NCBI GenBank assembly: GCA_950054155.1
Contig: CATLOT010000005.1
Span: 62,001 to 126,000 of the forward strand
Reading direction: 5' to 3'
DNA length: 64,000 nucleotides
Source: an uncultured Bacteriovoracaceae bacterium
Lineage (GTDB): Bacteria > Bdellovibrionota > Bacteriovoracia > Bacteriovoracales > Bacteriovoracaceae
This document shows, in pieces, positions 38,029 through 44,397 of this stretch (the first letter of the stretch is position 1; each line of letters begins with the position of its first letter). Made by a program: the position numbers and the translations under genes. The notes under the pieces were generated by a model. It ran no database searches, was not told where the DNA came from, and worked only from the letters and a program-made list of their open reading frames with translations.

Positions 38029-38532
38029 ATGAAAAAGAAGCTTACGGGTCCCCTCACGAAGTCTCTTAAGAAAGGCGAGATGATTTGTGTGGCGGGGGAG
38101 CAAAACTCTGATCTTTATATCATCCATGCTGGTAAGCTGATGGTCTTTGTGACAGATGGAACAAAGGTAACTCCTCTTGCTTATTTGGGGGAGGGAGAAT
38201 ATCTTGGTGAGCTTAGTTTCTTTGATCATGAACCACGAAGTGCTCATGTTATGTGTGTTGAGGATTCGACCTTAGTGCAGATTCCTGTTAGTGAAATTAA
38301 TAAGCAGTTTCCTCCTTGGCTTGTGACTATTGCTAATTCTATTACTCATAAGTTGCGTAAGAGTTCGGATCTTATTCGGCAAAAAGGGATTAGACGTAAG
38401 AATGTGGAGTCTATTAAGCCTCTTAGTATTGAGGAGCAACGGGAGGCGTATCAAAGTCTTCAGGACTATTTGGATGATAATCCGATGATTAAGGAAGAGG
38501 CTTTGGCCTGGCAGGAGCGGGTTGGGAGTTGA
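38029..38532 (+). CDS. Cyclic-nucleotide-binding-domain protein
   Basis: 167 residues with one Crp-type cNMP-binding domain: GELSFFDHEPRSAHV contains the phosphate-binding cassette (Gly-Glu and Arg-Ser-Ala). No HTH or catalytic domain follows; the C-terminus is helical and charged. It may be a small nucleotide-responsive regulator working with the upstream SGNH-like/TPR protein, given only four bases between the genes. From about 38225 on, codons shift to T/G-rich, unlike the first half. Confidence 0.85.
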   Translation: MKKKLTGPLTKSLKKGEMICVAGEQNSDLYIIHAGKLMVFVTDGTKVTPLAYLGEGEYLGELSFFDHEPRSAHVMCVEDSTLVQIPVSEINKQFPPWLVTIANSITHKLRKSSDLIRQKGIRRKNVESIKPLSIEEQREAYQSLQDYLDDNPMIKEEALAWQERVGS

Positions 38533-39153: not shown

Positions 39154-39201
39154 TTTTTGGTTGGGGTTTGGGGGTGGCTGGTTTGGGGTGCTGTAACTGT
39201 A
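39154..39201 (+). repeat. G/T-rich dispersed repeat, copy 2
   Basis: Same-strand partner of the element at 31577-31625. It has G-runs of 4, 5 and 4 and the conserved GGTTTGGGGTGC and GTAACTGTA. Confidence 0.75.
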
Positions 39202-39264
39202 TTCTGTGAACTCGTGTTTGGTGGGGGGGTCTTCTCTCACACTTTTGCCATTTTACCTCAATGA

Positions 39265-39325
39265 TCAAAGCGTCCGTCAAGGATGGGACCTGAAGGCGCG
39301 GGCGCGTCCTTGACGGACGCTTTGA
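39265..39325. repeat. 19-bp perfect hairpin upstream of the four-helix-bundle gene
   Basis: TCAAAGCGTCCGTCAAGGA (39265-39283) is the exact reverse complement of 39307-39325; the 23-base loop is G/C-rich and contains GGCGCG twice. An outer AATG/CATT continues the pairing after a one-base bulge. No T-run follows, so it is not a normal terminator. Confidence 0.9.
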
Positions 39326-39374
39326 CATTGAAGTTTGGGAGCGTTGTTGTCGTTTTTTTACAAGGAGAATTTCT

Positions 39375-39683
39375 ATGATGACAAAGTTTTTGACTCTTGA
39401 GCTGGCTATTGAGTTTTATCATTTGGTTAAGAATTATAAATTTCATAATCGGGTGATGCAGGATCAATTTAATCGGGCTTTACTTAGTATTCCTCTTAAT
39501 CTCAGTGAAGGAAGTGGTAAGCCTACTCATAAGGATCGGCGTAAGTTTTATTTTACGAGTTATGCTTCTCTTCGGGAGATTGAGGTTTTGTTTCGGCTTC
39601 AGGGGGAGGAGAAATTTAAAGATCAGATCGATCGATTGGCGGCTTATATTTGGAAGGTTGCCCAGAGGACGGGAGGGGCTTAG
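39375..39683 (+). CDS. Four-helix-bundle protein (S23/IVP family)
   Basis: 102 residues of the four-helix-bundle family first known from 23S rRNA intervening sequences: FHNRVMQDQFNRALLSIPLN, LSEGSGKPTHKDRRKFY and YASLREIE. AAGGAG lies seven bases before the ATG. In other bacteria, related proteins are encoded in rRNA inserts or serve as Avd in diversity-generating retroelements; here no rRNA or reverse transcriptase is near. Codons are T- and G-ending, unlike most of the window, which suggests transfer or a different mutation regime. Confidence 0.88.
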   Translation: MMTKFLTLELAIEFYHLVKNYKFHNRVMQDQFNRALLSIPLNLSEGSGKPTHKDRRKFYFTSYASLREIEVLFRLQGEEKFKDQIDRLAAYIWKVAQRTGGA

Positions 39684-39754
39684 TCTCCTCTCTTTATTTT
39701 CATTCCTGCCAAAGTCGACCTGGCACTTTTTGGGTTTTGGGAGTAGAATGAGGG

Positions 39755-40735: not shown

Positions 40736-41290
40736 TTAGAGGATTTCGCTTCTTTTGATTTCTTTAAATTCGCCCTCTTTTAAAAGGCCTAAGCGGACTT
40801 TACCAATCCCACTTCGAATAAGGCGCAAGCAAGGAAAGCCAATGGCCGCACACATGCGCCTCACCTGACGATTCTTCCCTTCAATCAGTTTCACTTCAAG
40901 CCATGAGGTGGGGATATTTTTACGCTCACGAATCGGTGGATTGCGCTCGGGAAAAGAGAAGTCCTTCATAAGGCGCGCCTGACAGGGCTTCGTTAGGTAG
41001 TCTTTGATTCTTAAACCTGTTGCCATTTTCTTGAGATCCGCGGCGGTTGGAATTCCTTCAACCTGGACCCAATAAGTTTTCTCTTTCTTTGATTTAGGAT
41101 CTGTAAGGCGTTTAATGAAAGGGCCATCATTGGTAAGAAGAAGAAGGCCCTCACTATCTTTATCCAATCTTCCCGCAGCATAGACTTCCTTAGGAAGATT
41201 GAATTCACTCAGAGTACGGTCGCCCTCTTCGCCTGTAAATTGGCAGAGGACGCCGTAGGGTTTGTAAAAGAGGATATACTTAGAGGTCAA
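40736..41290 (-). CDS. RluE-like pseudouridine synthase
   Basis: 184 residues of the RsuA/RluB/E/F family, with the catalytic Asp D43 in AAGRLDKDSEGLL, then KTYWVQVEG and the C-terminal GKNRQVRRMCAAIG and LIRSGIG. It makes pseudouridine, most likely in 23S rRNA. No S4 domain is present at the N-terminus, as in RluE. The start overlaps the upstream barrel-protein gene by 11 bases. Confidence 0.92.
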   Translation of the reverse strand: MTSKYILFYKPYGVLCQFTGEEGDRTLSEFNLPKEVYAAGRLDKDSEGLLLLTNDGPFIKRLTDPKSKKEKTYWVQVEGIPTAADLKKMATGLRIKDYLTKPCQARLMKDFSFPERNPPIRERKNIPTSWLEVKLIEGKNRQVRRMCAAIGFPCLRLIRSGIGKVRLGLLKEGEFKEIKRSEIL

Positions 41291-43182: not shown

Positions 43183-43701
43183 TTGGGAGAACAAAATAGT
43201 CAGTCAGGCAAGCCGTCATCAAAGCAATCCGGTCGCAAGAGAAACCGTCGCCGCAGACCTAATAACCGCAAAGGCAATAGAAATACCCAGAGCAAAGGTC
43301 CAAAGCTTACAGGTTTTGAAAAAGTAGAGCGCGGCTACCTCAACCTTCTTGAAAAACATCTCGAGTCGCGAAAGAAATACTATGCTCTCTTTCACCGCGC
43401 AGACCCACGTCAACTTGCCAAGCTTGAGCGCTCCTTTTATCGCACCCTCGAAGAGCTTCGTAACTACGAAGAAAATATCAAACCAGAATTTAAAGAAGAA
43501 TTTAATGCCAAGTACGATGGTCTCAAACAAGACACCACGTATTCAACTAATCATGAACTTGATCCCGGTTTGCAAGAGCCTGAGGTTCACGAGATTGAAG
43601 ACCCCCATCTCCTTCCCACTCAAGTGGATCATGAATTTAAAGGTGATGAAGAAGAGAGTGTGGGGAGCATTGACGACTATAATAAGTATAAAGGTCTCTA
43701 A
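43183..43701 (+). CDS. Basic, Arg-rich hypothetical protein, TTG start
   Basis: 172 residues. The N-terminus is Arg/Lys/Asn-rich (RKRNRRRRPNNRKGN), which suggests binding to RNA or another acidic partner; the middle is helical (YLNLLEKHLESRKKYYALFH) and the C-terminus is acidic. The start TTG is supported by AAGGAAGGAG upstream. No known family. Confidence 0.72.
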   Translation: MGEQNSQSGKPSSKQSGRKRNRRRRPNNRKGNRNTQSKGPKLTGFEKVERGYLNLLEKHLESRKKYYALFHRADPRQLAKLERSFYRTLEELRNYEENIKPEFKEEFNAKYDGLKQDTTYSTNHELDPGLQEPEVHEIEDPHLLPTQVDHEFKGDEEESVGSIDDYNKYKGL

Positions 43702-43756: not shown

Positions 43757-44083
43757 TTAAGAAAGAGCTTGAAGGGGTTCGCGAACATCTTCACGTGAAG
43801 CAGGTGAATTAACAACGCCATCTCCAGCAGCAAGAAAGTTCTCAAGAGTTTTTTCCTGATCTTCAAGAATAGCTTTTTTAAGATCTGCATGAGGAATATC
43901 AAGAATCTCTGAAACGCGGCTAAGCATTTTTAGAGGGACGTTACAAAGAGCTCTTTCAACGTTTGAAATGAACTGTCCATTCTTGTAACCAAGAAGTTGG
44001 CTCAGCTCTGATTGGCTATACCCTTTTGGGTGACCCATTCTTTTTTCTCTGATGAGTTTTGCAATACTTTCGAAGCTTCTCAT
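43757..44083 (-). CDS. XRE-type helix-turn-helix regulator
   Basis: 108 residues. The Cro/CI-type HTH covers about residues 5-65: YSQSELSQLLGYKNGQFISN then VERALCNVP, LKMLSRVSEILDI. AAAGGAAAACACT precedes the ATG at 44083. The C-terminal 40 residues are helical. It is divergent from the NfeD/slipin operon and could regulate it or itself. Confidence 0.88.
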   Translation of the reverse strand: MRSFESIAKLIREKRMGHPKGYSQSELSQLLGYKNGQFISNVERALCNVPLKMLSRVSEILDIPHADLKKAILEDQEKTLENFLAAGDGVVNSPASREDVREPLQALS

Positions 44084-44397
44084 AGTGTTTTCCTTTGTTA
44101 TTTGTTTATTCATTACTATTGTTGAGTCTCTCGATTGTCGGCTTTCTTACAAAAGGACGACTGTTCTTGTTCTCAGTATAGCGAGCAAGGTTAATTTTCC
44201 CTAGCAGATTAAGGTAAAATTGTTGACAGCAACCTTAACTTTTATTTAAATTCAGCAACTTAATCAAGAGCGGTCGTTTTTTTCTTCTTTTCCCCATATT
44301 ATTAAAAAGAAACTTATCTAAATGATGAAATTTGAGGAATAATCCCATAAATTGCTATATTTAGGTGGTTTGAATCACTTTTTATAAGGAAGAAAAA
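44084..44397. promoter_or_regulatory. Divergent regulatory region between XRE gene and NfeD operon
   Basis: 314 bases without a gene. On the plus strand TTGACA (44223-44228), a 17-bp spacer and TTAAAT (44246-44251) form a good promoter for the NfeD operon with a leader of about 140 bases. The same TTGAC-N17-TTAAAT layout occurs before the ole operon. The leader is AT-rich; no clear riboswitch was seen. Confidence 0.55.

Follow-up and report, generated by a model that had tools for sequence, protein, structure and literature searches.

The S23-carrying intervening sequences fragment bacterial rRNA; how they spread, and what role the S23 protein plays, is a long-standing question. The window analysed here, by which we mean the whole 64,000-nucleotide stretch of DNA from a Bdellovibrionota genome, contains no match to rRNA, tRNA or any other Rfam family, and harbors an S23-family gene preceded by a perfect hairpin. 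Are this hairpin and gene a mobile, RNA-associated unit or its relic, a part of one of the known S23-related systems, or an accident of sequence?

The hairpin and the S23-family gene of the window

The arms of the hairpin (39265-39283 and 39307-39325; stem strands TCAAAGCGTCCGTCAAGGA and TCCTTGACGGACGCTTTGA) form 19 bp with no mismatch around a 23-nt loop (39284-39306), and the whole structure (39265-39325, no strand assigned) lies 49 nt 5′ of the S23-type gene, exactly as described in the first-pass annotation. It ranks strongest among the close inverted repeats in the window, and its folding energy is -48.4 kcal/mol (z = -10.5). A chance or functionless palindrome beside an unrelated solo gene would agree with the presence of only one copy each of hairpin and gene in this genome; however, this explanation is scarcely credible, because chance alone would yield about 1e-5 perfect 19-bp stems, the core of the hairpin recurs beside S23 genes only, and its stem has undergone two-sided changes (see below). 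Furthermore, a stem of at least 11 bp was present in 2 of 69 control regions upstream of other genes, one of the two being probably this same hairpin seen from the neighboring gene. Both the sequence and a terminator scan, which makes no call here, agree with the reported lack of a T-run on either strand, and the reading of the hairpin as a terminator was dropped for want of one. A terminator-like hairpin with a T-rich tail is found at 39671-39692 (+), where it overlaps the stop codon of the S23 gene. The G/T-rich repeat noted earlier is also present, at about 39160-39230 upstream of the hairpin.

The gene (39375-39683, +) is intact and encodes a protein of 102 aa of the S23/IVP family. Both family profiles score above their cut-offs (PF05635, 1.4e-12, 48.2 bits vs 33.8; TIGR02436, 1.7e-13, 50.7 bits vs 24), every invariant residue of the family (Q, R, S, L, N, E, G, S, and E) is present, and the predicted fold consists of four helices (pLDDT 94.5), which confirms the assignment as an S23-type four-helix bundle. 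A structure search with this model returned the S23-family structures PDB 2gsc (best) and 2rld (next), followed by weaker matches to Avd (PDB 8ub7 and 4dwl). A TIGR02436 search identified no other S23-family gene in the genome of the window. In the family tree, the gene clusters with those of G006 and G022 and with the A members of the G001 pairs (support 99/94), and one protein relative carries the label Halobacteriovoraceae. A scan of contigs with the window protein returned one relative (L036), a scan of viral contigs gave a single distant match, and no relatives were found among plasmids and phages. A PADLOC match to Cas5d (E 0.002) was judged spurious.

A mobile element family in related Bdellovibrionota

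A TIGR02436 search of 59 genomes was positive in 20 of them, the largest number of matches in one genome being 19; the genes are multicopy in G001, G021, G027, G038, and G049. The elements of these relatives are about 0.7-0.8 kb long and usually consist of a perfect hairpin flanked by a divergent pair of S23-family genes. Where the region is present, most loci have a perfect 11-26-bp hairpin, located between the paired genes or directly 5′ of a solo gene; it is absent at loci including L014, L020, L042, L073, and L036, the last of which is a pair that has lost its middle. Thus, the combination of hairpin and gene, which the first-pass annotation had proposed to look for in other genomes, does recur there with this gene family.

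Within a genome, most copies are 80-97% alike along their 0.7-0.8 kb, and the resemblance stops sharply at their ends, beyond which the flanks are unlike; the G001 copies, which are about 68-76% alike, are older. The ends of the elements are related across genomes: they start with GGTTCTTT or GGTTCTCT. The terminal inverted repeat of G049, GGTTCTCTTCTRAAATTGGGGG, occurs at 53 places with at most two mismatches (one place for the reversed-pattern control), G021 and G027 have the end GGKTCTTTAACAAATAAG on one side, and the G038 elements end in GGTTCTTTC and CGCTCTTTC. Target-site duplications of 8-9 bp adjoin the termini of seven copies in three genomes (G027, G038, and G049), namely ATGGCAAT, TTTTTTTTG, AAATTTCCG, CCTATTTCT, CGCACCAAG, CGCGATAG, and TGAAATAAA. 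In addition, the site occupied by L064 in G038 is uninterrupted in the sister species G046, in which the 798-bp element and one 9-bp target copy are missing. In G001, termini and target duplications were sought and the ends could not be fixed. Terminal inverted repeats, target duplications, an empty site, and dispersed copies together show that the family is mobile in these relatives, and to this extent the description of a mobile RNA-associated unit is borne out. When copies from the same genome are compared, both genes give dN/dS values of 0.03-0.31 wherever dS is unsaturated, which shows that the S23 coding sequences are under purifying selection.

Contigs in G021, G027, G028, G038, and G049 often end inside an S23 element or its hairpin, and short-read assemblies therefore probably under-count these elements. 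An S23-family gene in G051 (L158, 1541-1762) is close to a tmRNA (1955-2304), and a tRNA is located beside another copy (L087); these neighbors are possible insertion hotspots.

Against this background, the hairpin and gene of the window are probably a reduced, immobile single copy of the S23-pair element family. Judged from its sequence, the copy seems to have lost the partner gene and recognisable termini and to have kept the protein and its presumed target hairpin. Instead of two divergent S23 genes, the window has a single such gene together with a putative 5-codon stump of a lost divergent partner (39237-39259, -; Shine-Dalgarno GAGG, then ATG GCA AAA GTG TGA), proposed by analogy with L037, L038, and L041. 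A tentative left edge, TGTATTCTGTGAACTCGTGTTTGGTG (39198-39223, no strand assigned), was picked out by eye for its weak similarity (about 20/26) to the outer end of the L036 element; a terminal repeat and a target duplication were looked for at this copy and none was assigned. Solo S23 copies also occur in G022 and G006. The module had been said to stand alone; this holds in that neither rRNA nor reverse transcriptase accompanies it, but the usual unit contains two divergent S23 genes, of which the window retains a one-gene remnant. The genes on either side, a cNMP-binding gene (38029-38532) and a pseudouridine-synthase-like gene (40736-41290), keep their order in G002, G003, and G006, in which the S23 gene is absent from the site. 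The interval between them is variable throughout, and therefore the ends of the element are not fixed by synteny.

Two observations concern the surroundings of these solo genes. The solo S23 gene of G006 (L020/L154) lies between GGTGGCGGTGAGC-type minisatellites, present on both sides in inverted orientation, and these G/T-rich minisatellites resemble the G/T-rich stretch beside the window hairpin. The gene at 38029-38532 encodes a cyclic-nucleotide-binding domain; its PADLOC matches to Pycsar-type effectors are due to this domain alone, and no effector domain was seen.

Covariation of the hairpin and the position of the Shine-Dalgarno sequence

A pattern search of 129 family genomes detected the hairpin core GTCAAGGA-N23-TCCTTGAC (39276-39314 in the window, no strand assigned) at four loci only, the window and three G001 elements, each beside an S23 gene. 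Each of these four long-type hairpins keeps 13 of 13 stem pairs, five pairs have changed on both sides, and sliding of the partner strand reduces pairing to less than 50%. The lower stem of the window hairpin differs from the other copies with compensatory changes. Thus, the stem sequences are shown to change while the pairing stays. A covariance model agrees with the core-pattern search; since the model includes the window sequence, the window score is not independent. Its hits in G108, G076, and G120 (E 0.05-0.07) are weak and were treated as chance. The hairpin of G022 is related and carries two small hairpins inside its loop; it matches the model, of which it is not a part, weakly, and it was omitted from the covariation count because MAFFT misaligned it.

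The two S23 genes of one element share DNA identity of only about 68-73% (self-matches), whereas the stem is perfect. In two genomes, the 13-nt loop is exactly inverted relative to the flanking genes (L045 vs L049 in G021; L055 vs L056 in G027), which suggests recombination or template switching across the perfect stem. Template switching during replication can also maintain perfect palindromes, and the inverted loops of G021 and G027 fit such events.

The position of the hairpin relative to the translation signals differs between two forms. In 9 of 11 lineages of the compact type (our own count), each gene has its Shine-Dalgarno sequence within the 3′ arm of the hairpin in its own leader, and this burial by the hairpin suggests autoregulation. 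In the long-hairpin form (the window, G001, and G022), the Shine-Dalgarno sequence is outside the stem; that of the window gene is AAGGAG at 39362-39367 (+). A model that we consider probable is that the window holds a reduced and probably immobile copy of an S23 pair whose expression is autoregulated through leader hairpins and whose transposition depends on a helper DDE transposase acting in trans. Each S23 mRNA would begin with the hairpin; in the compact form, this hairpin would bury the Shine-Dalgarno sequence of either gene, and binding of S23 proteins to the hairpin would repress their own translation. The same binding may mark the protein's own element and thereby confer cis preference, cutting and joining would be performed by the DDE-type enzyme supplied in trans, and the S23 pair would serve as an accessory or regulatory factor of transposition.

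Candidate machineries and known systems

The search for helper transposases covered the ISL3, IS1595, and IS256 families. ISL3 elements have ends that start with GGTTCTTT and produce 8-bp duplications. However, ISL3 is missing from G027, G028, and G034, and no ends like those of the S23 elements turned up around the ISL3 genes inspected, an inspection cut short in G049 by a nearby contig end; ISL3, the first candidate considered, was therefore set aside as the helper of all genomes. IS1595 is absent from all eight genomes searched and IS256 from six of the eight (it is present in G038 and G049), so that neither accounts for all genomes.

It might be argued from these results that the S23 pair and the hairpin are the mobility machinery itself, with hetero-oligomeric S23 rings acting at the hairpin and the ends and with no DDE enzyme involved. 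No transposase was found between the matching terminal repeats of the G049 copies examined, G027 contains none of these three transposase families and yet has a copy with a target duplication, and purifying selection between copies is what would be expected of a mobility protein; the outcome at the ISL3 genes points the same way. However, the S23 proteins are helical bundles of about 100 aa without any known nuclease motif, and we consider this reading unlikely. Similarly, we give little weight to the broader proposal that an undescribed class of minimal bacterial transposons, from which the rRNA intervening sequences arose, uses S23 pairs as its dedicated mobility proteins, which act via the central hairpin.

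A more serious competitor, which is possible but which we would not expect to prevail, is that the S23 genes and hairpin are cargo of MITE-like, non-autonomous transposons that various transposases mobilise, with the hairpin regulating expression only and the passenger being a selfish regulatory or defence unit, for instance. The termini vary between genomes, there are short elements with internal deletions (L106, L116, and L059), and in G025 a different S23-family gene lies in elements (L088-L095) that are nearly identical to one another, measure about 465 bp, and have terminal inverted repeats of 50 bp, a second case, separate from the first, in which S23 is coupled to a transposon. On the other hand, the layout of two genes and a hairpin persists with related ends across families of the phylum, whereas a random passenger would be expected to become uncoupled. 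The S23-pair elements of the relatives do work like MITEs with a conserved two-gene payload: like bacterial MITEs and cargo-carrying non-autonomous transposons, they are short, have terminal inverted repeats and target duplications, lack a transposase, and include deleted copies, features that were seen in the relatives, the termini of the window copy not having been found. They differ from MITEs in bearing a selected, conserved gene pair and a covarying central hairpin. REP/RAYT systems (REPINs) also tie small hairpins to one bacterial gene family, but there the gene encodes an HUH enzyme instead of S23, and the S23 hairpin was not found dispersed alone.

Several features recall the intervening sequences of 23S rRNA (Leptospira and Coxiella): a PF05635/TIGR02436 protein, a perfect or near-perfect long stem, and long-suspected mobility (PMC4990558). 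In Coxiella, the S23 gene of the intervening sequence is flanked by 28-bp inverted repeats, and the origin of such sequences as transposition remnants or mobile elements is still a matter of hypotheses (PMC4990558). The S23-pair elements, by contrast, are dispersed outside rRNA, usually contain two divergent genes, and have terminal repeats and target duplications, and their hairpin lies upstream of or between the genes rather than around them; in the window, it is wholly upstream. No rRNA was detected at any of the S23 loci scanned in the relatives. No second copy of the hairpin was found in the genome of the window, and it is therefore absent from the 23S rRNA genes of this organism, where the first-pass annotation had suggested looking for it. 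The Avd/bAvd proteins of diversity-generating retroelements share the fold and work with a structured RNA; however, the S23-pair elements have no linked reverse transcriptase, the genome of the window (G000) and G021, G027, G034, and G049 contain no reverse transcriptase (RVT_1) at all, and the Avd of G001 forms a separate deep clade in the tree. Consequently, neither of the links proposed at first was upheld, and it is highly improbable, the shared protein family and the Coxiella arrangement notwithstanding, that the locus is an rRNA intervening sequence with an RNase III-excised stem or an Avd-RNA part of a retroelement. An Avd-like gene does occur in the same genus: the bAvd-like gene L043 (G001:C121, 479-859) directly precedes an RVT_1 gene (G001:C121:1038-1667), the two likely constituting a diversity-generating retroelement, and L023 of G005 is a close relative of this Avd.

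No earlier description of S23-pair elements was found in the literature searched, which included few subscription journals. Being stand-alone and multicopy, with clean ends, a selected S23 pair, and a covarying hairpin, these elements offer a tractable system for the question of S23 function and spread, and they provide a functional lead for the uninformative annotation "four helix bundle protein."

Elsewhere in the window, a gene for an HTH_3 regulator (43183-43701, +) and one for a very basic, RNR-rich protein (43757-44113, -) form a convergent pair, apparent homologs of which adjoin each other in L136 of G021.
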